Under the pieces are notes generated by a model, which made no database searches, was not told the origin of the DNA, and saw nothing but the letters and a program-made list of their open reading frames with translations. The position numbers were made by a program, and so were the translations under genes. From positions 1 through 64,000 of the forward strand of contig JAKAJO010000134.1 of NCBI GenBank assembly GCA_021813745.1: a stretch of 64,000 nucleotides of DNA, given 5' to 3'. This stretch comes from Acidobacteriota bacterium (GTDB lineage Bacteria; Acidobacteriota; Terriglobia; Terriglobales; Acidobacteriaceae). Below, in pieces: positions 1 through 13,521 of this stretch (within the stretch, counting starts at the first letter, position 1; each line of letters opens with the position of its first letter).

Positions 1-599
1 AGCACAGCTTTCCCCTCTTCCTCAGAGAATGCGAATGGCGCTTCAATACTCCAAACCCTAAACTGCAACAAACACAACTAAAACAATGGGTTACACGATT
101 CATGGCATGATTATCTGGTACAGCCCCTTCTTTTCAAAGTGATGGGTTACTAAACGCAGAAAGCGCCCGTGCAAGAATTATGCCCGGAATGCGCTCGCGT
201 GTCGCTTGACCGGAATCGCACTTCCGTAAACAGCGCCGTCCTTATCCTTCCTCACGCCGGTCCGAGATTCACGAAGCCGTTGAGAAATGCTGTTGCCCGG
301 CATTTCAATCTTGCTGTCGTCTTGTCCCGTCCGCAAAGGAGACAGCTCAGAACATCCGTCTCTTTATTATTCGGCAGGCATGTTATCTATGAAGCGAATT
401 TGTGTTGAAAAGATCGACGCAAAATTCTGCCTCTGAATCATCGTTCTACCTCTCTCATTCGCAGCTTTCCGACTTTCGATGGAGAATGCTCCCAGCCTTC
501 CAGTGGAGAGATGGCTATTGCGTGCAAGATTTGTGACTTTAGTCGCTTTCGATGCATTTGCGGCGCCCTTATGTTGACTGAGTTTCCCTGAGGGGCCCG
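1..599. other. Intergenic region with no convincing gene
   Basis: I see no believable gene in this stretch. The short ORFs listed here have no signal peptide, domain or ribosome site and look like chance. A 9-base string (atgggttac) occurs twice, near 85 and 142. The right end carries a candidate operator and a -10 element for the cytochrome gene that starts at 600, annotated separately. Confidence 0.6.
534..545 (+). promoter_or_regulatory. Candidate CRP/FNR-type operator upstream of the pentaheme cytochrome
   Basis: The bases TGACTTTAGTCG form an imperfect inverted repeat of the type TGAC-N4-GTCA. The same pattern appears upstream of ric (TGACAAAAGTCC) and between the NarK-type gene and fmdE (TGACTTAAGTCA). 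A plausible -10 hexamer, TATGTT, lies at 570-575. The motif centre is therefore about 42 bases from the expected transcription start, the spacing of class II activation by CRP/FNR-family regulators. That a regulator of this family binds here is inference. Confidence 0.5.
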
Positions 600-2681
600 A
601 TGCAATCCAACATTGACAGAGATCAATCCCATACCGGTTGGTCAACGATTCTTTCACGCGGAATTGGCGCTGCCCTTTTCTTCGAACTTGTTTCCGGACT
701 CGCAGTCACCTTCGGGCCATTCCATCCAGCCATTGAGTGGGGCCTGATCTTCCACACGGTGCTGGGAATCGTGGCAGTTGGACCCATCTGCTGGTATTTC
801 CTTCAGCATTGGAGGTCGTATCGAAGCCAGGCAATGTCCGATGTGTTGCTGCTGGGGTACGCAGGCGCCTGCGTGCTTGCAGTCTGTCTGCTCTCTGGCC
901 TGCTTTTGACTGGGCAAGGTCTCTTTGGAGTCAGGACTTGGGCGTGGCTGCGCTACGTTCACCTGATATCAACGCTGCTTGGCGCCGCGGCCACAATGCC
1001 CCACCTGGTGCTAGCTTTCTGGCGTCGCCGAAATCAGGAGACTTACCGGGCTGCACTTGGCTGGATCTCTACGCTTGCCGGTAGCACCCTGGGGGCAGTG
1101 GTCGTTGTGGGACTGTGCACGTCGTCCTACTCCGGCACTCACTATCGGAACAACTTTCCCGCTGATTACAGCTTTGCCTACGGTGCGAATCGCCCCTTTG
1201 CGCCGAGCCTTGCGAGGACATCCACGAACGGAGCCTTCGATCCTCGCTCGCTGGCTGGCTCTGAAACCTGCGGCGAGAGCGGCTGCCATACCGAGATTTA
1301 CAACGAGTGGAAGGTCAGCGCACATCGGTACGCAGCCATGGACCCCATCTTTCAGGGAATCCAGAATGTGATGGCGAAGCAGAACGGCCCCGAGTCGACG
1401 CGCTATTGCGGTGGATGCCACGATCCGATCTCGCTGTTCTCGGGAACGAAAAACATCTTTGCTGCGAATCTCACCAGTCAGCTCGGATACAACGATGGAA
1501 TCTCCTGCCTCGCCTGTCATTCCATTCAGAAGACGGATATCCAGGGAAACGCAAATTACATCGTCGCGCAACCAAAAGACTATCTGTGGCAGTGGAGTGA
1601 CGATCATACCTTAGGTGCCGTTGCGCGCAACTTCCTGATCCGTACGTGGCCGGCGCAGCATAACCGGCTCAACAAGCGCGTCTACAAGACGCCCGAGTAC
1701 TGCGCCGCGTGCCACAAGCAGTTCATCGATGCGGAAATCAACCGTGTGGGCTGGGTGCAGTTGCAGAATCAGTACGACAACTGGGCTGCCAGCCATTGGA
1801 ATCACAAGGGAGATCCGAAGACGACCATTGAGTGCCGTGAATGCCACATGTCGCTGGTCGTCTCCACGGATCCCGCGGCGGGGGACGCAATGGACTACAA
1901 CCGCAGCTTGGACGACCACCGGCATCGCAGCCATCGCTTCCTTGCCGCGAATAACTTCGTTCCGGCGCTGCTTCAACTGGATGGCGCGGCAGACCAGGTA
2001 CGCATGACCGACGCCTGGCTCCAGGGTCGCGTCGATATTCCGGAGATTCGCAGCAAGTGGGCGCAGGGGCCTGTGGTGAAAGTTCGGATTGAAGTACCAC
2101 GCAGTGCCACACCGGGAGAATCGTTGCCGGTTCGCGTTGTGCTCACATCGAACAAGGTGGGGCATGACTACCCGACAGGTCCGCTCGACATGATTCAAAG
2201 CTGGGTGGAGTTACGCGTGACGGATGGAAGCGGTCAAGTCATTTACACCTCCGGCCAGCGCGATGAAAAGGGCTTCCTGCCACCGGGAACGTTCCTCTTC
2301 AAGGCAGAGCCAGTGGATCAATACGGAAATCTCATTGATCGCCACAACCTGTGGGAGATGGTCGGTGTGCGATACCGCCGGTCGCTCTTCCCTGGATATT
2401 CAGACACGGTGGAATACGACATTCTATGCCCAGCTGGCGCTCGGGCGCAGCGCCCCGCTGCTCTTCCGTCAGGATCGACTCGGGAATACGCAGTCCCGGT
2501 CAAATCTGTGCATGGGAACCTCCGCATCAACGCGGTTCTCCATTACCGGAAGATCGATCAGTTTCTTCTGAATTACGTGATGGGTGCGAAATCGAACCTG
2601 ACCGCACCCGTCGTCGATGTTTCCCAGGCAACAGCCACGGTGTGTGTAGAAGCGAAAGGGGATGCAGTCGCATGCCAGTAG
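600..2681 (+). CDS. Membrane-anchored pentaheme c-type cytochrome
   Basis: This 693-residue protein probably carries electrons between the quinone pool and periplasmic partners. The first ~175 residues hold about four hydrophobic helices with conserved-looking histidines (FHPAIEWGLIFHT), resembling a small b-type cytochrome. A periplasmic domain follows with five heme-attachment motifs: CGESGCH near residue 224, CGGCH near 270, CLACH near 303, CAACH near 368 and CRECH near 412. The first has four residues between the cysteines instead of two. The last ~200 residues look like a beta-sandwich. The ATG at 600 follows a GAGGGG ribosome site. The next gene overlaps its end by 10 bases, so the two are probably translated together. 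Substrate is unknown; the neighbouring ric and nitrate-type genes suggest nitrogen-oxide chemistry, but this is inference. Confidence 0.8.
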   Translation: MQSNIDRDQSHTGWSTILSRGIGAALFFELVSGLAVTFGPFHPAIEWGLIFHTVLGIVAVGPICWYFLQHWRSYRSQAMSDVLLLGYAGACVLAVCLLSGLLLTGQGLFGVRTWAWLRYVHLISTLLGAAATMPHLVLAFWRRRNQETYRAALGWISTLAGSTLGAVVVVGLCTSSYSGTHYRNNFPADYSFAYGANRPFAPSLARTSTNGAFDPRSLAGSETCGESGCHTEIYNEWKVSAHRYAAMDPIFQGIQNVMAKQNGPESTRYCGGCHDPISLFSGTKNIFAANLTSQLGYNDGISCLACHSIQKTDIQGNANYIVAQPKDYLWQWSDDHTLGAVARNFLIRTWPAQHNRLNKRVYKTPEYCAACHKQFIDAEINRVGWVQLQNQYDNWAASHWNHKGDPKTTIECRECHMSLVVSTDPAAGDAMDYNRSLDDHRHRSHRFLAANNFVPALLQLDGAADQVRMTDAWLQGRVDIPEIRSKWAQGPVVKVRIEVPRSATPGESLPVRVVLTSNKVGHDYPTGPLDMIQSWVELRVTDGSGQVIYTSGQRDEKGFLPPGTFLFKAEPVDQYGNLIDRHNLWEMVGVRYRRSLFPGYSDTVEYDILCPAGARAQRPAALPSGSTREYAVPVKSVHGNLRINAVLHYRKIDQFLLNYVMGAKSNLTAPVVDVSQATATVCVEAKGDAVACQ

Positions 2682-5347
2682 CTACATCGCCTGACCGGAC
2701 GCGCCGCGCATCGAAACGCCTTCGCCGTCTCACCTGGACAGTGACGTCACTTGTGGTGCTTTTGGTTATCACCGCCATTGTGACCTGGAAGATACGCAAG
2801 GACGCCCAACCCGACGAATATGTTCCGGGAGAAGCATCGAACGATATTACGAATATCGTTGCGGATCGCGGCGCGAAACGATCCACTGAAGCGGCTCCAG
2901 CAGCCAGCAAGGTTGTGAGTTCGCAAAGAGCCGATCCCCTGCTCAATCCAGGCAGAAAGTTGCCTGCCGGTGCGCCTGCGCCGTACTTCACTGATGTGAC
3001 AAAGGAGGCTGGGCTTGCATCCTTCAAACAATTTGCTGGAGGACGCACATCGCAGCTTCCGGAGGACATGGGCTCGGGCCTTGCATGGGGCGACTTCGAC
3101 AACGACGGGCTGGAAGATGTGTTTGTCGTGAGCGGCGGAGGGCCTCTGAACGCGCCGGCATCACAGCTTGCTCCTTCTGTTCTTTACAGGAATCTGGGCA
3201 ATGGACGCTTTGAAAAGGTGAAGGGCTTTCCTGACCTGCGCATCCACGGCATGGCGGCAGCGTGGGGCGACTATGACAACGACGGGCGGCTGGATCTTGT
3301 CGTCACGAGTTACGACCGCATCGATCTCTTCCACAACAATGGCGACGGAACGTTTACCGACATGACGCACAAGGCCGGCCTCGACCGCTTTCGGGGGTTC
3401 TGGGCCGGGGCCGCATGGGGTGACTACGACCGCGACGGCCATCTGGACCTCTACATCTGCGGCTATGTGAAATACAAGTCTGACGCGGCGAAGAATGACA
3501 CGACATCAGAGCAATTCGGAATGGATGTGCCGTATTCTTTGAATCCGGCATCGTTTGAGCCGGAGCGCAATCTGCTCCTTCATAACAACGGGAACGGCAC
3601 CTTTACGGAGGTCGGAAAGCAGCTTGGCGTCGCGAACCCTGACGGGCGCAGCCTCGTCGCGCTCTGGCACGACTTCAATGGCGATGGCTGGCCTGATTTA
3701 TATGTAGCCAACGACATTTCTGAAAATAAGCTCTACATCAACCATCATGGCAGGTTTGTGGACGCGGGCAAGGATGCGTGGGTCGAGGAATATCGCGGCT
3801 CAATGGGCCTGGCGGCGGGAGACTTCGATCGCGACGGCGATGATGACCTGTTCATCTCGCACTGGATTGCTCAGGGCTTTGCCCTTTATCAGAATCTGCT
3901 GGAAGATCAGAAAGGCAAGAACGGGAAATCAGAGCTGCACTTCACCGACGTGGCCGCCACAAACGGCGTGGGCGAGCCCACGATGCAGCGCATTGGCTGG
4001 GGCACGAGCTTCGTCGATTTCGATTCTGATGGCTGGCTCGATCTCATGGTGGCCGATGGTAGCACCTTTGAGCTGAAAGGAAATGCGCCGCTTCGCCTGA
4101 CTCCCATGCCGTCGTTTCTCTTCTGGAATGCGAAGGGGGATTTCTTTCAGGACCTGGCGCCGTGGAACCGCAACTTTGCGCAGCCGCATGTCAGCCGTGG
4201 ACTGGCAGTTGCCGATTACAACAACGATGGCGCGATGGACGTAGCGATTGTGGATCAGGGCGAAGGAGTGCGGCTGCTGCGAAATGACATTCCGCAGGGG
4301 CACTGGGCCGAATTCCGCCTGCACAGCCGCGTGCCGCCCTCGAATGCTCCGCTGGGCTTTGGCGACGGCGCGACGATGATTGCATGGGTAAAGGGCGTGC
4401 AGCTGCGGCGAACCGTGGGAAGCTCGTCCTACCTGTCCCAGGACAGCCATCGCATCCACATCGGACTGGGCTCTGCCACTCGCATCGATCGCCTGGAGGT
4501 GCACTGGCTTCGAGGCGCGCCAGAGGTTTGGAACAACGTCGCCGCCGACCGAATCTATGACGTCACGCAGGGTGAGGCCGAAGTGAAGCCCGCTGTGCTG
4601 GCTGGCACGAAATCCAATCAGCCTGCGCCGCGCACCGGCCCGCTGGATAAGGCTGCCACCGAGCAGTTCTGGACGAAGCAGCACGCGGCCATGGATGCAA
4701 TGAAGCGCGAGGGTAACTTTGCCAAGGCGGCCCAACTCTTTCAGCAGGCGCTGGCCATCAATCCCAATCAGGAAGACTCGCTCTATTACCTGGCTAGTTG
4801 CCTGGCTGAGATGGGAGAGATTCCTTCGGCCATCGCCGAGCTCGATACGCTGATCCGCGTCAATCCCCAGAACCATCGCGCCTTTCAGCGGAAGGGTGAA
4901 TTGCTTGCCGCATCCGCAAACTCAAGGAGCGAGCTCACCCCGCCACGTCAGGCGTTGGACGCGGCGTTGAAGTTGAATCCTGAGGAGACGGGAACCCTTG
5001 TGCTTCTTGGAGAGGTCAAACTTGGCGAGGGAGACCTTGCGAGAGCAGATCGCGACTTTGCGCACGTCCTTCAAGCGAACCCTCGTGCGGCCAATGCGTG
5101 GTATTTCCGGGGATACATCGCGTGGAAGCGAGGCGACTCTCGCCAGGTTGCCAACATGCTGGAGGCGGCGCACACCGCTCTTGGCCCCGACTGGAAGCCG
5201 GCCGGCTCTGTGCTGGAAGGGGATGTGCGCCGTCGCATGTATTCGGAATCAGAATTTCTGGGTGTCTTCGCCCAGCAGTGGGATGGGAGTATGAACCCGG
5301 CATCGGCCTACTCGCAAATGGACGCATACCTTCGCAGGATCCATTGA
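2672..5347 (+). CDS. CRTAC1-like FG-GAP/ASPIC-UnbV protein with TPR tail
   Basis: The track ORF begins at 2351, but its first 107 codons lie inside the cytochrome gene. The ATG at 2672 overlaps the cytochrome stop and gives an 891-residue protein. It starts with a basic stretch and one membrane helix (near residues 20-45), so it is probably a periplasm-facing anchored protein. About seven calcium-type DxDxDG repeats follow (GDFDNDG, GDYDNDG, GDYDRDG, DFNGDG, GDFDRDG, DFDSDG, DYNNDG), consistent with a beta-propeller. An ASPIC/UnbV-type domain and several TPR repeats complete it. The function of such proteins is unclear. Tight coupling to the pentaheme cytochrome suggests a shared complex. Confidence 0.8.
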   Translation: MPVATSPDRTRRASKRLRRLTWTVTSLVVLLVITAIVTWKIRKDAQPDEYVPGEASNDITNIVADRGAKRSTEAAPAASKVVSSQRADPLLNPGRKLPAGAPAPYFTDVTKEAGLASFKQFAGGRTSQLPEDMGSGLAWGDFDNDGLEDVFVVSGGGPLNAPASQLAPSVLYRNLGNGRFEKVKGFPDLRIHGMAAAWGDYDNDGRLDLVVTSYDRIDLFHNNGDGTFTDMTHKAGLDRFRGFWAGAAWGDYDRDGHLDLYICGYVKYKSDAAKNDTTSEQFGMDVPYSLNPASFEPERNLLLHNNGNGTFTEVGKQLGVANPDGRSLVALWHDFNGDGWPDLYVANDISENKLYINHHGRFVDAGKDAWVEEYRGSMGLAAGDFDRDGDDDLFISHWIAQGFALYQNLLEDQKGKNGKSELHFTDVAATNGVGEPTMQRIGWGTSFVDFDSDGWLDLMVADGSTFELKGNAPLRLTPMPSFLFWNAKGDFFQDLAPWNRNFAQPHVSRGLAVADYNNDGAMDVAIVDQGEGVRLLRNDIPQGHWAEFRLHSRVPPSNAPLGFGDGATMIAWVKGVQLRRTVGSSSYLSQDSHRIHIGLGSATRIDRLEVHWLRGAPEVWNNVAADRIYDVTQGEAEVKPAVLAGTKSNQPAPRTGPLDKAATEQFWTKQHAAMDAMKREGNFAKAAQLFQQALAINPNQEDSLYYLASCLAEMGEIPSAIAELDTLIRVNPQNHRAFQRKGELLAASANSRSELTPPRQALDAALKLNPEETGTLVLLGEVKLGEGDLARADRDFAHVLQANPRAANAWYFRGYIAWKRGDSRQVANMLEAAHTALGPDWKPAGSVLEGDVRRRMYSESEFLGVFAQQWDGSMNPASAYSQMDAYLRRIH

Positions 5348-5362
5348 AAAGACGCAACGGAG

Positions 5363-5374
5363 TGACAAAAGTCC
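5363..5374 (+). promoter_or_regulatory. Candidate CRP/FNR-type operator upstream of ric
   Basis: TGACAAAAGTCC lies 16 bases after the CRTAC1 stop codon and about 50 bases before the ric start. It matches the TGAC-N4-GTC pattern seen at 534 and 12818. A weak -10-like hexamer (TACCTT) sits at 5398-5403, almost the same distance away as in the cytochrome promoter. This suggests ric has its own regulated promoter. Confidence 0.45.
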
Positions 5375-5424
5375 CTGCGACAGAATTTGCCTCTGGCTAC
5401 CTTCAATAGTGAAGGAGGTCTTCC

Positions 5425-6144
5425 ATGGCCACACCAACACAGACTGTTCGCGACATTGCCACCGAGAATCCCGCCTCGGTTCGCGTATTCGAAAGACTTG
5501 GAATCGACTACTGCTGCGGAGGCCGAGTGCCACTGGCCGAAGCATGTGCAACCAAGGGCCTTGATCTGGATGAGGTGGTTGCGTCCCTCGCAGAAGCCAC
5601 TCCGCAATCCGTACCCGGAGCGCCGGATTGGATGAAAGAGTCACTCAGCCGTCTCGCAGCACACATTGTGAAGACGCACCACGCGTACGTGACGCAGGAA
5701 GTGCCGCGCCTGAATGGGCTTGCCATCAAGGTCGTGAGCCGTCATGGCGATACACGGACGGAGCTGGCCGTTATTCAGTCGAAGCTGGAAGATCTCAGCG
5801 AGGAGCTGATCACGCATCAGGGAAAGGAAGAGGTTGTGCTCTTTCCCTACATCGGCAAGCTGGAGCAGTTCGTCTCCGGAAACGGAGCCATGCCGCGCAA
5901 CTGCTTCGGGACAATTGAAAATCCGATCCGGATGATGACCCAGGATCACGATGTGGCGGGCCATTTGATGGCAGAGATTCGCAACCTGAGTGAGGACTAC
6001 ACGCCTCCTGCCGGAGCCTGCCCTACCTTCCGTGCGTTCTATGCTGGCCTGCATGAGTTCGAACAGGATCTGCACCAGCATATTCACTTGGAGAACAACA
6101 TCCTGTTTCCACGCGCGATCGCCATGGAAGCGTCAATTGCTTAA
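5425..6144 (+). CDS. ric: Iron-sulfur cluster repair di-iron protein (Ric/YtfE/ScdA family)
   Basis: This 239-residue cytoplasmic protein belongs to the family that repairs iron-sulfur clusters damaged by nitric oxide or oxidative stress, using a hemerythrin-like di-iron site. The N-terminal ScdA-type domain (about residues 5-60) has the characteristic double cysteine in DYCCGG. The rest is a helical hemerythrin-like domain rich in His and Glu (KTHHAY, HQGKEEVVLFP, QDHD, HIHLENNILFP). Length is normal for the family. A clear ribosome site (GAAGGAGG) precedes the ATG. It is flanked upstream by a candidate FNR-type operator and downstream by a strong terminator, so it is probably monocistronic. 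Its position beside an apparent nitrate reductase system fits nitrosative-stress defence. Confidence 0.93.
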   Translation: MATPTQTVRDIATENPASVRVFERLGIDYCCGGRVPLAEACATKGLDLDEVVASLAEATPQSVPGAPDWMKESLSRLAAHIVKTHHAYVTQEVPRLNGLAIKVVSRHGDTRTELAVIQSKLEDLSEELITHQGKEEVVLFPYIGKLEQFVSGNGAMPRNCFGTIENPIRMMTQDHDVAGHLMAEIRNLSEDYTPPAGACPTFRAFYAGLHEFEQDLHQHIHLENNILFPRAIAMEASIA

Positions 6145-6193
6145 GGCGATCCTAAGCACTCGGACTCATTGCTGCTCGACGTGACACCCAGGA

Positions 6194-6229
6194 GAGAGTG
6201 GGCCTAGAAATAGGCCACTCTCCATTTTT
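6194..6229 (+). terminator. Rho-independent terminator after ric
   Basis: A 12-base-pair stem with one bulged G and a GAAA loop (GCCTA-GAAA-TAGGC at its tip) is followed by ATTTTTC. It ends the ric transcript in the convergent gap before the minus-strand operon. Confidence 0.85.
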
Positions 6230-6272
6230 CTTGCAGATAGACCTTCATGCGGGCGCAGCAGATCGAACCTGA

Positions 6273-6509
6273 TCAGCTCTTTAGCTCTTTTTTCGCTTCA
6301 CGGTCGAAGCGGAAGACGTAGCGCAGAAGGCCTGTGTTCAGGGCGAAGAGGCACGTCGATGCGATGGCTGCCGGAACGAGCGTTGTGAAGTGCCCGCGCA
6401 GCAGAGCTTCCATGGAGAAGGTGAGCAGCCACAACTGCAGTACGACCGTGGTTGCCACCAGCACGAGGACGGCACTGAAAAGAGTTGTACCCTGAGTGCG
6501 CAGGCTCAT
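6273..6509 (-). CDS. Small two-helix membrane protein (DUF6755-like), last gene of the molybdoenzyme operon
   Basis: This 78-residue protein has two hydrophobic helices (about residues 9-33 and 42-63) and a charged C-terminus (RFDREAKKELKS). It has no cofactor motif. Its start codon directly follows the Rieske stop, so it is probably coexpressed and may help anchor or assemble the complex. The match to DUF6755, a family found beside Rieske/molybdopterin operons, is from memory and should be treated as likely rather than certain. Confidence 0.7.
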   Translation of the reverse strand: MSLRTQGTTLFSAVLVLVATTVVLQLWLLTFSMEALLRGHFTTLVPAAIASTCLFALNTGLLRYVFRFDREAKKELKS

Positions 6510-7043
6510 CTAGGCCTCCCATCCGGTCGCAAAGATCTGGTCGCCGCGCTGCTCCAGCGTGACGCGAGGAAGCGCGCGCGTGGGTGGTCCGGCAACCGGT
6601 GTTCCCTCTTTCACCTCAAATGCGCCGCGGTGGCATGGGCAAAGGAGCTGGTTCTCGCTCTTGTCATACACCACAGCACACGAGAGATGTGTACACACCT
6701 GCGAGTAGGCGACCAGTTGCCCTTCCGGTGTACGGATGGCGATGCAGGGCGACTCCGGCGTTGGATAGCGAAAGAGCAAATGGCTATGCTCTTCGAGTTC
6801 CTCAATCGGCCCGATCAGCTTGACGACCTTGGATTCCCTGCGCACGAGCCTCCTGCTGAAGGCCATGGCCCAGTTAGCAATGGCCAGAAGAAGCGATCCG
6901 AGCGTCAGGAATTTCACCATTTCGCGGCGGGTGACATAGTGATCGCCTTCCCACTCGATGGGAAAGTCCTGCTGATGACGGCTCATCCCATTGGCCGCGG
7001 CGCTTTGCTTCGATGTCGCTGCTGATTCAATCTGCTGCATCAC
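6510..7043 (-). CDS. Rieske [2Fe-2S] protein with N-terminal membrane anchor
   Basis: This 177-residue electron carrier has the two Rieske motifs CTHLSC and CPCHRG, which bind one [2Fe-2S] cluster through two Cys and two His. Near residue 40 a twin-arginine-like stretch (TRREMVKFL) precedes a hydrophobic helix, suggesting Tat export with the helix retained as an anchor, as in cytochrome bc Rieske proteins. The start overlaps the preceding ferredoxin stop by four bases. In this operon it may pass electrons between the b-type cytochrome and a periplasmic partner. Its exact partner cannot be told from sequence. Confidence 0.9.
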
Positions 7044-7669
7044 GCTTCAACTCCTTCCAGCATGAGGGCAATGTCGTATGGGTCGCTGGGCAGCGGCTTG
7101 GGAGTGGTTTCGATCTGCACCAGATTCACTTCGACCCGCTCCACCTCCCGCGGCACCATCACATAGACCTTGGTCCGGACTTCTTCTCCGCCGAACTTCC
7201 ACGAGTTGACTGGAATCCCGCGGCGGGTGCGCTGAATCTCTTCCATCGTGGTGTAGGTCAGTGCGCCCGAAGGGCAGACCGTGGCGCACATCGGCTTCTT
7301 GCCGATGCTGCTGCGGTCGTAACACATGTCGCACTTCATCATCTGCTCAAACTCGGCCATGTACTTGGGAACTCCGAAGGGACAGGAGACGACGCAATTC
7401 GAGCAGGCGATGCAGCGCGGCTTGAGTGAGCTCTGCACCACGCCATCCGGAGTCTTCTTGATGGCATCGGCAGGGCAGACACGGGCACAGACAGGGTCTT
7501 CGCAGTGCATGCACACCTGTGGCGCTGTCTGCACACTGTCGATGCGCTCGATGGTTTCGAGATGAATCATGCTCGTACCGCGATGGGTGTCGCACTCCGC
7601 GCATGCCTGCACGCAGGACTGGCATCCGATGCAGCGCGAGTAGTCAATAAAGAACTGCATTTCGGTCAT
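7040..7669 (-). CDS. 4Fe-4S ferredoxin-type electron-transfer subunit (four clusters), copy 2
   Basis: This 209-residue protein resembles the iron-sulfur subunits of DMSO reductase-family enzymes. Four cysteine groups are visible: [35 protein letters not shown] and CDMC...CATVC, consistent with four [4Fe-4S] clusters. There is no signal peptide, so it should act in the cytoplasm with the molybdopterin subunit. It overlaps both neighbours by four bases. It is a tandem paralogue of the next gene upstream, sharing cluster layout and the CDMCYDR string. Confidence 0.93.
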
Positions 7670-8280
7670 CGCGCACCATCCGCGTTGCTGAAAGATGGGT
7701 CTGTTCCCTGCACCGCATCGGCAATATCAAACAGCAGATTGCCAAAGAGATCACCGTCGTCATGGGAAATCAATCCGGCGCTTGTATGGATCTTCTCGCC
7801 GGCAGAGGTCCAGTCGCGAAGAATCATGCCTTTTCGCTTCTCCTCTGCCTCTGCGAGGGACGTGAACGCAAGCGCGCCAGTAGGGCACGCTGTGACGCAA
7901 AGCGGCCTCTCACCACCCAAGCAGCGGTCGTAGCACATGTCGCACTTCATCACCGTGTTCAGACTCTCCACGTACAAGGGCACTTCGAAAGGGCAGGCCT
8001 CGACGCAGAGTTTGCATCCCGTGCAACGGTCCCTGTCAATGCCCAGCACGGTTCCGTCAGCAGCAACAGGAATGGCGTTGACTGGACAGACACGGACGCA
8101 TCGAGGGTCTGTGCAGTGCATGCAGGCCTGTGCAAAGCGGTTCGACGTTCCGCCGGGATAGGTTGTCGTGAAGTGAATCATGGTGATGCCGTGATGGTCA
8201 TCGCGCGATGCACACGAGGCCTCGCAGGTTCTGCAGTGGATACATCGGGTTGGATCGATGAAGAAAATCCGCTCGCTCAT
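7666..8280 (-). CDS. 4Fe-4S ferredoxin-type electron-transfer subunit (four clusters), copy 1
   Basis: This 204-residue iron-sulfur subunit has cysteine groups [35 protein letters not shown] and CDMC...CVTAC, for four [4Fe-4S] clusters. It lacks an export signal. It overlaps the molybdopterin gene upstream and the second ferredoxin downstream by four bases each, indicating translational coupling. Two consecutive four-cluster subunits are unusual for one molybdoenzyme. They may form an eight-cluster wire or serve different redox partners. Confidence 0.93.
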
Positions 8281-10499
8281 CGGACTCCTCCCGCCTGCAC
8301 CTCGAGCATCGCGATGGGGTCGGTTGGCTGGTCAACCTTGCTGATCCGAACTGCAGCCACTTTGAATTCCGGGATATTCGATACGGGATCGATGGCCCGA
8401 ATGGTGCAGTTGTTTGCGGAGCGGTCGAGCGGCCAGTGATAGGGCACAAAGACCGTGTCGGGACGAATCGTCTTGACCAGCTTTGCGCGGACGACCACGT
8501 TGCCGCGGCGGCTCTCCACCTTCACGAAGTCCTCATCGGCAATTCCCAGCTTCTCGGCCAGGCGCGGATGTATTTCGCACACAGGCTGAGAATATTGCTC
8601 GATCAGGCTTCCAATCCTGCGCGTCTGTGTTCCGGAAAGAAATTGCGAGACGACTCGCCCGGTGGTGAGAAAGATCGGATACTCGGCATCAGGCATCTCC
8701 GCAGAAGGCCGCCATTCCACGGGCATGAAGTGCGCTTTGCCATCAGGATGCCCGAACTTGCCGCCTTCATAGAGGCGTGGCGTGCCGGGATGCGCTTCGT
8801 CGGGGCACGGCCAGAAGATGCCGTTATTGTCATCGATGCGCTGCCATGTCATGCCGGAGTAATCGGATGTACTGCCCTTGGAAGCACGGCGCAGTTCTTC
8901 GAAGATATCCTTCGGCGATGCGTAGTTGAATTTATCCGGCTGGCCCAGGCGCGCTGCTAGATCGCAAATGATCTTCCAGTCTTCGCGCGCTTCGCCCGGA
9001 GGCGAGACCACCTTGCGATGGAGAATGACGCGGCCTTCCACGTTGGTGGTGGTCCCTTCATCCTCTTCCATCAGGGAGCCGGGAAGAACGATATCCGCAT
9101 AGCGCGCGGTTTCCGACAGGAAGAAATCGATGTTGACGTAGAACTCAAGCTTCGAGAGCGCTTCGCGTACGAAGTTGGCGTCGGGCAGCGAAACGGTGGG
9201 ATTGAAGCAGATGGAAATCAGCCCCTTGATGCGGCCATCGTGAATCGCCTCAACAAGCGGAACGGCTGAGAGCCCTTTGCCGGGAATGCTCTCCTCCGGA
9301 ACTCCCCAGATGTCGGCGATGAACTTGCGATGCTCCGGATTGGAGATGTCGCGGCTGCCAGGAAGCTGGTCGCACTTCTGCCCCTGCTCACGCGCGCCCT
9401 GTCCGTTGCCCTGGCCGGTAATCATTGCATAGCCGCAGCCCTCCCGGCCGATACGGCCGCTTGCCACCACAAGATTGATGGCGGCCAAGCAGTTGTCCAC
9501 ACCCTTGGAGTGGTGTTCGATGCCGCGCGCGTGAAGAAGAAAGCTCGTCGGCGCCGGCCCCCACATTGCAGCGGCTTTCACGATCATCTCGGCTGGAACG
9601 CCGGCGATCTTCGCGGCGTAGTCTGGCGTGTACTTGCGAACAGCTTCCTCGACAGCGTCGAAGCCGGTTGTATGCTCGGCGATGAACTGCCGGTCAATCC
9701 AGCCGCGCTCGATCATCACGTGCAACATGCCATTGAAGATGCCGATGTCGCCGCCCGGTCGAACAGGAATGAACAAATCCGCATTTCGTGCGATGGGCGT
9801 CATGCGCGGGTCAATGACGATGAGTTTTGCGCCGTTCTCTCGCGCCTGCCACAAGTAATCCGTCGTGATCGGCGCGCACTCGGCAACATTGGCTCCGGCA
9901 ATCAGGATGACCTTTGCCTTGGGAATATCGCTCCAGGGATTCGCACTGCGATCAACGCCGAAGACCTTTTTGGATGCCGCTCCGGCTGAGACCATGCACA
10001 AGCGTCCGTTGTAGTCGATGTTCGCGGTTTGCATGGCAACGCGGGCGAACTTGCCCATCAGGTACGCTTTCTCATTGGTGAGCGAGGCGCCGGTAAGAAT
10101 GGCAAAGGCATCTTTGCCGTTGGCCGCCTGGATGCGGCGAATCTCTGCGACGATGCGCTCCATTGCGGGTTCCCAGCCGATGGGTTCGAAGCCGCGGCCT
10201 TCGACGCGCTGCAGCGGCGTTTTCAGCCGGTCGGGATGCTCATCCTGCATGTAACGCTTCACGCCCTTGGGGCAAAGCTTGCCGCGATTGAAGGGAAAGT
10301 CTTCCCATGGTTCGAAGCCGACGACTTTGTTGTCGCTGACGCGGAGCTGAATGCCGCATTGCTGGCCGCAAAAGCAGCAGTGCGTCTTGACCATCTTCTC
10401 TTCGTGAGAATTGCGAATCCAGCCGCCCGACGGAACCGTATGAAGATGAGGCCCGAACTCTGCGACGATCTCCGGAATGCTTTCAGGTAGCTTTGCCAT
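8277..10499 (-). CDS. Molybdopterin oxidoreductase, nitrate reductase-like catalytic subunit
   Basis: The ORF is longer, but the ATG at 10499 (MAKLPES) follows a GAGGTC ribosome site and gives 740 residues, two bases after the upstream stop. The N-terminus has the [4Fe-4S] motif CCFCGQQCG...LCPKG. The probable molybdenum-ligand cysteine lies in [11 protein letters not shown], and [20 protein letters not shown] resembles the cofactor-binding region of NasA/NarB-type nitrate reductases. A molybdopterin dinucleotide-binding domain forms the C-terminus. There is no Tat signal, so the active site should be cytoplasmic. A NarK-type transporter heads the same operon, which favours nitrate as substrate. 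Formate dehydrogenase is the main alternative, since the families are similar and an FmdE-like gene lies nearby. Confidence 0.88.
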
Positions 10500-10501
10500 T
10501 T

Positions 10502-11584
10502 CTATTGACCTCGTGAGTTCAGTGCCTGGGCCTTCCAAAGGCCGTCCTGGGTGAGCGCAACATTCTTGCGCCGGCACGTTGGGCAAATGTCTTGATAGTG
10601 CGTACCGTCGGCTAACTGATAACGAATGCCAAGCGCGGCCTGCACCTGCTTCAGATCCTCCACATGCATGCGGCTTGTGAAGGGCAGGCCGCATCGTTTG
10701 CAGAGAGCCTGCTCGCCCGCAGCGCCCGCTCGCTTGTAAAAGTTGACACCGAGCTGAGCTGGACGCTGGAAGATGTGGAAGAACTTGCCAAACGGCAGGA
10801 AGAGCAGCGTCAGGATGACCGTAATCGCATGCAGCTGCGAGAGGAATCCATAGTAGATTCCGCCCATCAAGTGTGTGGAGATGGTGAGGAAGAGCCCCGT
10901 GATGGAGATCGCAAACAAGAGGATCAGCGGCAGCATGTCATCTGCGAACTGCTGGACCGACCATGCGCCATGATCACGCCCGCGCCGCCAGAAGGCGAAG
11001 AAGACGCCAATCAGAACCATGACGGCCGCGATGTCGAGGATGTTGAAGGTCAGCTCGGCTACCGGCGTGCCCAGATGAAAGCTTCCCAACGGAATCCCGA
11101 AGACAAACGCGCGATAGATGTTCTGGTTATGGATTGCGCTCTCAAAGCGGACCCAGCCGAAAGAGAGCGGGAAGGTGACAGCCGCTGCCAGGATGCATCC
11201 CCATGCGAGGAACCAGTGAGCCGTCCAGCGCAATTTGGAGCGACGCTCGATGAAGCTCTGCAGTACAACGGCGTTCCAGAAGATGTGTGCCAGGTGAGCG
11301 AGATTGCGCGGCAGGTCTCGCGGCTCGAGGAAGATTTTCCATCCGCGGTACCAGTAGAGTCGTGTTGGTGCACGGCGCAGCCACATCGCGTACCGGTAGC
11401 CCAGGCCGAATCCAGCAAGCACGGACGCGCCCGCATAGGAAACGAGCGCGGGATCAAAATCGCGCAAACCACGGCTGCCGAGCAAAATGCCGGCGATGAG
11501 GACTCCGGCAACAGCGAGACCGCATAGCATTGCATGCGTCGCATCTGAAATCCGAGGGAAATTGTATGTGTCCCTCATTGTCAT
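10502..11584 (-). CDS. NarI-like b-type cytochrome membrane subunit with C-terminal double-CxxC tail
   Basis: The start chosen is the ATG at 11584, which overlaps the transporter stop (ATGA). The product is 360 residues. About six hydrophobic helices span residues ~12-300 with histidines in suitable places for heme b ([25 protein letters not shown]). The last ~65 residues form a soluble tail with two CxxC pairs, CKRC and CPTC, probably a zinc ribbon or rubredoxin-like site. I infer it oxidises quinol and feeds the molybdopterin/ferredoxin subunits. NarI proteins are shorter and lack such a tail, so this is a divergent relative. Confidence 0.75.
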
Positions 11585-12753
11585 TGGGTCACCGGATTCT
11601 GTACAGGTGAAGCTTTGCACCCGGCAAGGAGTACAGCCAGGCAGATCCAACAGAACACAGAGAGCATGATAAACCCGATCAGAAAACTCCCAGTCCGCTC
11701 CTGTACGAATCCAAGGATCAGTGGCGGGAAAAATCCACCCAGTCCGCCCGCTGCACCTACGAGACCCGTAACACTGCCAACCGACTGCGGAAAATACGCC
11801 GGAACCATCTTGAAGACTGCGCCGTTGCCAAGCCCGATGGCTGCAGCAGCTCCCAGGGCGCCAATGGTAAAGGTGATCATGAGTGGACAGGCCATGAAGA
11901 TGGCCATAATGGCGGTGAATGGGAAGACCCACTTCAAAATCCTGGGTCCACCGACTCTGTCGGCGAGAATTCCGCCGATGGGACGTAGCGCAGTTGCGAT
12001 AATGACAAAGCCCGCGGTCCTGAAGCCAGCATTCTGTGGTGATAGGTTGAACATATCGGTGAGGAAGATGGGCAAATAGATCGCCATTGCGACGAAGCCA
12101 CCAAATGTTAGGAAGTAGTAGAGACTAAGAATCCAACTGCGACGGTCCTTGAGTGGCCGGATGGTTTCCTTCATCGACTTCGCGGGGCGACGGCTGGGGG
12201 CATCCTTCGCAATCATTGCGAAAATGGCGAGCCAAACAGCCAGAATGATGCCGAACATCCAAAAGCCCCAGCGGAAGCCAAGAGCTGCGGCAATCAATGG
12301 AGCACCGAATGCGGCCAGAGATTGGCCAACATTTCCGGCTCCGTAGACACCGAGAGCGAAGCCCTGCTTGTCCGGTGGATACCATCCACTGACGAAGCCG
12401 ACGCCGACCGAAAAGCTCGCTAGGCCGATTCCAATTAAAAATCCGTAGGCAAGCAAATGAACATAATCCTGCACGTCGCCCATGAGGAATGAAGGAAGAA
12501 GCAGAAGCGTCATCAAAGCCATGAACACCCTGCGTCCCCCCAAGCGATCTGTTAGCACTCCGAGAGGGATTCGACCAATGCTGCCGAGCAAGACTGGAAC
12601 GGCTACCGCGAAACTCTTTTGGGCAGGGGAGAGATGCATCTGCGAGCTCAGGATCGGCATCATGGCCGACAATGACCCAAACACTGCAAAGCACAGAGAA
12701 AATGCACCAGTGCCGAGCGTAAGTTGCATTCTGGCGGACGAGGATGAAGTCAT
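11581..12753 (-). CDS. NarK-type nitrate/nitrite transporter (major facilitator superfamily)
   Basis: This 390-residue protein has about twelve membrane helices. It carries motifs close to the nitrate/nitrite porter signatures: [15 protein letters not shown] in the first half and [14 protein letters not shown] in the second. It heads the seven-gene operon and is coupled to the cytochrome gene by an ATGA overlap. It most likely imports nitrate and/or exports nitrite. The upstream region contains two inverted repeats that may be operators. Confidence 0.87.
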
Positions 12754-12780
12754 TCGGTGATTCCCTCTTCGATTCTGACT

Positions 12781-12797
12781 GCAAATCTAGGATTTGC
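12781..12797 (-). promoter_or_regulatory. Perfect 7-3-7 inverted repeat in the NarK-type promoter
   Basis: GCAAATC-TAG-GATTTGC is a perfect inverted repeat, 28 bases upstream of the transporter start codon. It overlaps where a -10 element would be expected, which suits a repressor site. The cognate regulator is not in this window. Confidence 0.4.
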
Positions 12798-12817
12798 GAT
12801 CGATCTCGATCCCGCAG

Positions 12818-12829
12818 TGACTTAAGTCA
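12818..12829. promoter_or_regulatory. Perfect TGAC-TTAA-GTCA palindrome in the divergent NarK/FmdE promoter region
   Basis: TGACTTAAGTCA is a perfect 12-base palindrome, a plausible CRP/FNR-family site. It lies between the transporter operon (minus) and the FmdE-family gene (plus), so it could control both. Related sites occur at 534 and 5363. Confidence 0.5.
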
Positions 12830-12927
12830 TTCTAGTGGATATGCTTCTGAAACACTGAAAGAATGTGGCGCGCGCTCGTTTGGTACGGCATGCATCCCGT
12901 ACCATGTGGAGAGAGGCTTCCGTCCCA

Positions 12928-13521
12928 ATGTCAGATCCAGCGCCATTCCCAAATCATATCGCGACGATGCATAAGCATCTGTGCCCGCGTCAGGTTTTGG
13001 GAGTGCGCATGGGCCAGTACGCCGGCAACTTGCTGTGTCTGGAGTTACCGCAGCAGGATAAGCGGCTCTACACGTTCGTCGAAACAGATGGCTGCTTTGT
13101 CGACGGCGTTACCGTAGCGACCGGCTGTTCTGTTGGACATCGCACGTTGCGAGTGATGGATCTCGGCAAGGTAGCCGCCACATTTGTTGATACGCAAACT
13201 GGGAAGGCAGTTCGTATCTGGCCCCATGCGCAATGCCGGGCACGTGCAGAACGCTACGCGCCGGCTGCACCAAATCGCTGGCGTGCGCAGCTGGAAGCCT
13301 ATCAGGTCATGCCGGCAGAGGAGCTCCTTTCAACATGCCATGTTGAATTGCTGATTGACTTGAAGGCACTCATTGCCATGCCGGGAGGACGGGTCAACTG
13401 CAGCAAGTGCGGAGAAGAAGTCCTCAATCAGCGCGAGGTGATTCGCGATGGTCATCTGCTTTGTCTAGATTGCGCAGGGAGTGGCTATGTGCGACGTACT
13501 GATGCAGGTCAGGCAATGTGA
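12928..13521 (+). CDS. FmdE-family protein with C-terminal zinc finger
   Basis: This protein is related to formylmethanofuran dehydrogenase subunit E, a family often linked to molybdenum or tungsten enzymes and probably involved in metal or cofactor handling. The FmdE-type core is recognisable from HLCPRQVLGVRMGQYA onward, including the conserved cysteine (TVATGCSVGHRTL). The C-terminus holds a zinc finger, CSKC...CLDC. The ATG at 12928 follows GGAGAGAGG at ~11 bases; earlier in-frame ATGs (12865, 12904) are possible. It is transcribed divergently from the nitrate-type operon, suggesting a maturation or regulatory role for that molybdoenzyme. Confidence 0.82.
   Translation: MSDPAPFPNHIATMHKHLCPRQVLGVRMGQYAGNLLCLELPQQDKRLYTFVETDGCFVDGVTVATGCSVGHRTLRVMDLGKVAATFVDTQTGKAVRIWPHAQCRARAERYAPAAPNRWRAQLEAYQVMPAEELLSTCHVELLIDLKALIAMPGGRVNCSKCGEEVLNQREVIRDGHLLCLDCAGSGYVRRTDAGQAM

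Follow-up and report, generated by a model that had tools for sequence, protein, structure and literature searches.

The window, the 64-kb stretch of DNA analysed here, belongs to an acidobacterial assembly of 4.62 Mb in 136 contigs. Three of its transcription units carry a related palindromic element upstream (Table 1). The first encodes a multihaem c-type cytochrome and an FG-GAP/UnbV_ASPIC/TPR protein, which are probably co-transcribed as judged from the overlap of the two genes. The second contains ric, coding for a di-iron protein of iron-sulfur cluster repair. The third is an operon on the opposite strand running from a NarK-like transporter to a Rieske protein, referred to below as the narK/nasC-type operon. 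NasC was the best-scoring model for its molybdoenzyme, yet the score stayed under the equivalog cut-off; nitrate is likely the substrate of this protein. A gene for an FmdE-domain protein with a DksA-type zinc finger (12865-13521) is located divergently from this operon, across operator 3. It was dismissed as a class II target of that operator, as no -10 element was found at the right distance. A second ric gene (contig C95, L059:1-1681), 78% identical to that of the window, follows an apparent partial copy of the ASPIC/TPR gene, an arrangement which suggests that the ASPIC-ric unit was duplicated.

Table 1. Genes, operators and promoter elements of the three window units, and copies of the operator pattern elsewhere in the genome.
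Feature	Position	Strand	Evidence or remark
Operator 1, GTGACTTTAGTCGC	533..546	+	upstream of multihaem cytochrome gene; matrix score 20.5 bits
-10 element TATGTT	570..575	+	starts 30.5 bp from centre of operator 1
Multihaem c-type cytochrome gene, 693 aa, membrane N-terminus	600..2681	+	Cytochrome_C7, Cytochrome_C554
FG-GAP/UnbV_ASPIC/TPR protein gene	2660..5347	+	domain matches; exact start uncertain
Operator 2, GTGACAAAAGTCCCTGC	5362..5378	+	upstream of ric; matrix score 26.2 bits
-10 element TACCTT	5398..5403	+	starts 29.5 bp from centre of operator 2
ric, iron-sulfur cluster repair di-iron protein	5425..6144	+	TIGR03652 230.6 bits, above cut-off of 204.7; ScdA_N and Hemerythrin
Rieske protein gene, last of the narK/nasC-type operon	6510..7043	-	domain match
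4Fe-4S ferredoxin-type subunit gene	7040..7669	-	domain match
4Fe-4S ferredoxin-type subunit gene	7666..8280	-	domain match
Molybdopterin oxidoreductase gene	8277..10694	-	NF047855 (NasC) 841.5 bits, below cut-off of 1100; GRLCM motif; start uncertain
Membrane protein gene, weakly NarI-like	10502..11551	-	PF02665 20.4 bits, below cut-off of 22.9; start uncertain
NarK-like MFS transporter gene, heading the narK/nasC-type operon	11581..12753	-	TIGR00886 224 bits, below cut-off of 311.7
Nearest -10-like element TAGATT	12784..12789	-	34.5 bp from centre of operator 3; does not fit class II spacing
Operator 3, ATGACTTAAGTCACTGC	12814..12830	-	faces narK/nasC-type operon; 26.9 bits, top matrix score in the window
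GTGACWWWWGTC copies, quinol NO reductase (qNOR) genes	contigs C7, C93		upstream
GTGACWWWWGTC copy, multihaem cytochrome gene (hydroxylamine/hydrazine oxidoreductase-type relative)			upstream
GTGACWWWWGTC copy, DUF438-hemerythrin (HHE)-PAS protein gene			upstream
GTGACWWWWGTC copy, second ric gene	contig C95		upstream
GTGACWWWWGTC copies, two crp/fnr genes	contigs C7, C79		each followed by a ric paralogue on the same strand
Eleventh GTGACWWWWGTC copy	contig C29		intragenic

The three sites and their promoters

The initial annotation had located related sites at positions 534, 5363 and 12818, and the sequence matches it exactly: TGACTTTAGTC, TGACAAAAGTC and TGACTTAAGTCA are the sole places in the window with TGAC-N4-GTC. 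It had also considered that three hits of this 7-base pattern stand out, which does not apply to the bare pattern (4 strand-matches versus 8.35 expected, thus no excess) but does to an extended 12-mer form, GTGACWWWWGTC. The latter fits all three sites (3 observed versus 0.10 expected) and none of 100 shuffled sequences reached this number. Since the extended pattern was formulated after inspection of the window sites, more weight is given to an independent weight matrix trained exclusively on sites from other genomes. With this matrix the three sites obtained the top scores of the window, the next unrelated position reaching 6.7 bits and the best one among 100 random windows 18.6 bits. Operator 3 scored clearly higher on the minus strand, i.e. 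toward narK, than on the plus strand (19.3 bits). The proposal that the cytochrome, ric and nitrate-type units share one operator is supported.

The -10 elements of the cytochrome and ric promoters were measured at the distances originally claimed (Table 1). Among 44 promoters of ric, qNOR and other activation targets, taken from this genome and its relatives, 35 display a TAnnnT element starting 29.5 or 30.5 bp from the site centre, with a background of about 0.3 per offset. The geometry of class II activators (site centre near -41.5) is read here from the -10 spacing. The class II spacing postulated for CRP/FNR activators holds for the cytochrome, for ric and for most homologous promoters, but is weak for the nitrate operon. 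The narK/nasC-type operon is likely to belong to the regulon. The promoters of two crp genes, described below, differ in that TAGAAT or TACAAT starts 12.5 bp from the site centre and a GTG start codon coincides with the expected transcription start; this suggests that the crp gene is leaderless and autorepressed.

Placement in the genome and conservation in relatives

Eleven copies of GTGACWWWWGTC were found in the genome, ten of which lie upstream of the three window units or of genes of the NO/nitrosative stress response (Table 1). The random genome-wide spread that the initial annotation had named as a refutation was therefore not observed. A variant site, GTGACCTAAGTCGC, precedes a third stand-alone ric on contig C85. 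Directly or via a crp-ric operon, the operator covers without exception the five ric genes, the two full-length qNOR genes and the two regulator genes. A composite search combining the operator with a -10 element at class II distance gave nine matches, seven of them at three ric genes, two qNOR genes and two cytochrome genes. The number of matches as such was rejected as evidence, because it equals that of the reversed-pattern control for GTGACWWWWGTC (11 versus 11) and for the composite search (9 versus 9); only placement and conservation carry the argument. The genome-wide sites originate from pattern searches; matrix scoring covered the window. In this genome hcp was discarded as a target: the lone Prismane-family match proved to be a CO dehydrogenase of the anaerobic type, and no site accompanies it. 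This catalytic subunit (L241:1453-3216, contig C56) was identified with TIGR01702 (720 bits, cut-off 478), and its contig also carries another CRP/FNR gene.

Footprints were searched in the 350 bp upstream of orthologous loci in relatives. The operator was detected upstream of 27 out of 30 ric, 15 out of 23 qNOR and 18 out of 30 regulator loci. For narK, the core matches in this genome and in the two closest orthologues, and a form with one mismatch is present in a third; conservation of the operator 3 site appears weak. No close orthologue exists for the multihaem cytochrome, and in front of its distant homologues the footprint search showed no conserved operator.

The matrix built from 35 sites of relatives has the consensus GTGACTWAAGTCNCTGC. 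Its left half consists of G (90%) and T (89%) followed by G, A and C (98% each), and its right half of GTC (98% each) followed by N, C (84%), T (73%), G (90%) and C (68%). With T in only 1% of the sites at the first position, the half-sites are not of the TTG type, and an FNR-type TTGA operator was rejected on the basis of the matrix. The earlier attribution to FNR/DNR/NnrR-type recognition had to be abandoned, the more so as the regulator discussed below lacks the FNR cysteine cluster. The operator is CRP-like, GTGAC-N4-GTCNCTGC.

The presence of sites is linked to that of the regulator. Among 60 relatives, the 26 genomes with a regulator orthologue contain 70 sites of GTGACYWAAGTCNC versus 14 of the control, and the 34 genomes without it 4 versus 20. 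The association is significant in tests uncorrected for shared ancestry (Fisher p=2e-10, and p=1.4e-6 within the same genus only). In a phylum-wide sample, regulator homologues were present in 23 out of 297 genomes. In most of the same-family genomes sampled, ric is located beside the regulator gene, with the operator and the same -10 element. Some distant regulator homologues in other families also have similar sites nearby. Where relatives with the regulator are named, they are Acidobacteriaceae and Granulicella MAGs, in many cases recovered from peat. Further targets in relatives include hcp, a NapH-like Fer4_5 membrane protein, a MobB-MobA fusion, a lactate dehydrogenase and a YwiC-like protein; the target content is largely that of nitrosative stress. 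Operators in front of hcp or of the NapH-like Fer4_5 gene (about 365 aa) were seen in many relatives (L201:4133, L208, L221, L222, L145; L200:3436, L216:4743, L150:1501).

The candidate regulator

A search for a CRP/FNR-family regulator, as recommended initially, yielded a candidate. The gene is located on contig C7 at 37.7-38.4 kb (L056:11677-12381) and a 77%-identical copy on contig C79; each one heads a crp-ric operon and has the operator on its own gene. Both copies score above the cut-offs of PF00027 and PF13545, which places them in the CRP/FNR superfamily, and no NCBIfam subfamily model was matched above cut-off by either copy. Scores were far below cut-off with the CRP equivalog model (79-81 of 266 bits) and with the Fnr model (60 of 228 bits). 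Alignment of 31 homologues revealed no N-terminal 4Fe-4S cysteine cluster of the FNR type, Cys51 and Cys120 being the only conserved cysteines; Cys120 is invariant, Cys51 and His123 are nearly so. These three residues lie in the sensor half and represent a possible NO- or metal-sensing site. The predicted structure (mean pLDDT of 89) matched the folds of GlxR, CRP, DNR (3dkw) and HcpR.

The recognition helix, TVREL[IV]SR, is common to all 31 homologues and contains the pair R180/E181, which has been tied to G3/A6, i.e. to GTGA half-sites (Rodionov et al., 2005; PMC1274295). The half-sites described here fit this expectation. As R/E is found at these positions in most of the remaining CRP paralogues as well, the helix does not discriminate among them, and the assignment rests on the crp-ric linkage, on the sites in front of the regulator genes and on co-occurrence.

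Several genes neighbour the crp-ric operons. A radical SAM/SPASM gene of the TIGR04053 family (479 bits, cut-off 395), related to the AhbD/NirJ types that modify haem, is oriented divergently to each of them (L057:7711-8841 on C79; L056 from 12448 on C7), the operator being situated in the common intergenic region. Directly downstream of crp-ric, both operons contain a gene for a multi-pass membrane protein (L057:4805-6148; L056:9545-10873) for which no Pfam or NCBIfam match was obtained at E<=0.001, and which also adjoins regulator homologues in other families.

Taken as a whole, these data make it very probable that the three sites are operators of the CRP/FNR-family activator encoded in crp-ric, and that they belong to an NO-stress regulon. 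Alternatively, the operator could be recognised by a regulator of the oxygen-sensing FNR type or of the cAMP-CRP type, the NO genes being included incidentally in a response to anaerobiosis or carbon. The CRP-like half-sites, the approximately eight other CRP/FNR proteins encoded in the genome, most of them with R/E helices, and the fit of the nitrate and cytochrome operons with an anaerobic switch all agree with this possibility. It is nevertheless unlikely: the crp-ric protein has neither the cysteine cluster nor the scores of Fnr or CRP, the targets (ric, qNOR, hcp) are NO-specific, and genomes devoid of the crp-ric regulator retain several CRP/FNR paralogues yet almost no sites. Even less probable is that an overlooked regulator of another kind, repressor or activator, reads the sites, with the crp-ric protein as merely another target. 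The binding by the crp-ric protein is a prediction and the crp genes themselves bear sites; but CRP/FNR dimers typically use two-fold symmetric half-sites with a 4-bp spacer and class II spacing, as seen here, regulator and sites co-occur, and the crp-ric linkage is kept across genera of the same family. Chance matches, for which only the missing enrichment of TGAC-N4-GTC in the window speaks, can be neglected given the rarity of the 12-mer form, the choice of the same three places by the matrix from other genomes and the agreement of -10 geometry and conservation. For operators 1 and 2 this reading is contradicted by both the matrix and the -10 distance, for operator 3 by the score in the matrix.

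A putative NO-stress switch and its relation to known systems

Regulation by the crp-ric protein would proceed as follows. The regulator dimer is predicted to bind GTGAC-N4-GTCNC(TGC) just upstream of the promoter, and to give class II help to RNA polymerase from a site centred about 41-42 bp before the transcription start. On the regulator gene the operator overlies the promoter, at 12.5 bp from a -10 element close to the consensus, so that the regulator probably holds its own production in check. As indicated by the target content, nitric oxide or nitrosative stress is the most likely trigger. The output would comprise NO reduction (qNOR), iron-sulfur repair (Ric), cytochromes and the nitrate-reductase-type operon of the window, as well as Hcp in relatives. 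The sites with their geometry and conservation, their joint occurrence with the regulator and the target content were observed; direct binding, activation, autorepression and the NO signal are proposed. The initial idea of one shared operator is right and extends to what appears as a whole NO-stress regulon, the signal being deduced from its targets. The three sites are part of a conserved switch of Acidobacteriaceae in which a CRP/FNR-type protein most likely turns on jointly the genes for NO detoxification, iron-sulfur repair and nitrate-related functions. For Acidobacteriaceae, and probably for other Acidobacteriota too, the best reading is an NO-stress regulon that is governed by a CRP/FNR-family protein and has an operator of its own. 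A rather doubtful extension is that the crp-ric regulator represents a distinct, Acidobacteriota-wide class of NO sensors, with the operator GTGACTWAAGTCNCTGC and a leaderless, self-limiting gene. Such a sensor would perceive NO by a new site (Cys51, Cys120, His123) instead of the haem proposed for DNR or the 4Fe-4S cluster of FNR.

The closest solved sequences and folds are those of CRP, GlxR and Mycobacterium tuberculosis CRP, with which the logic of the GTGA half-site is shared. In contrast to CRP, the crp-ric protein scores below the equivalog cut-off and would control a local set of NO genes, not carbon metabolism globally. Where the cAMP pocket of CRP has an Arg-Ser pair, the crp-ric protein presumably has PA/PF-PAS, as judged from its sequence. 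HcpR is likewise a CRP/FNR-family regulator of NO stress acting on hcp and norB, with a gene that often adjoins a target. Its operators are wTGTGAnnnnnnTCACAw in Desulfovibrio and TTGACnnnnGTCAA in other delta-proteobacteria and in cyanobacteria (PMC1274295), the former being CRP-like (GTGA) as the one described here. The present system differs by its core targets, ric and qNOR, with hcp in relatives only, and by an operator in which an additional C/G flanking the spacer is conserved and CTGC extends one side only. The distinction from HcpR made here is one of targets and operator.

DNR and NnrR, with the sites TTGATnnnnATCAA and TTGcgnnnncgCAA, respectively (PMC1274295), are NO-responsive CRP/FNR-family activators of nor genes, and ric of P. 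stutzeri is under the control of DnrD (PMC9268430). The fold of DNR is similar and a response to NO is also presumed here; however, the half-sites of DNR and NnrR begin with TTG instead of GTGAC, and the crp-ric protein is nearer in sequence to GlxR and Mycobacterium CRP than to DNR. The regulons of NsrR and NorR contain the same kind of targets (ric/ytfE, hcp, nor), but NsrR, a repressor, and NorR, which is sigma54-dependent, belong to other protein families and recognise other operators (PMC1274295).

In the literature searched, in which subscription journals were thinly covered, no work on an acidobacterial NO regulator was found, and no account of the control of the norZ-type NO reductases of Acidobacteriota. 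These enzymes, which would make N2O, have been interpreted as detoxification enzymes (PMC5900883). Acidobacteriota abound in soils, and peat commonly harbours Acidobacteriaceae. The present result supplies a concrete operator, a candidate regulator and a list of targets open to direct testing, and the matrix can be used to annotate NO-responsive genes in genomes of uncultured soil bacteria. In one relative, the operator also precedes an L-lactate/malate dehydrogenase gene beside crp-ric (L198:6459-7494). It recalls the NO-inducible lactate dehydrogenase of Staphylococcus aureus, a likeness taken here as a lead only.
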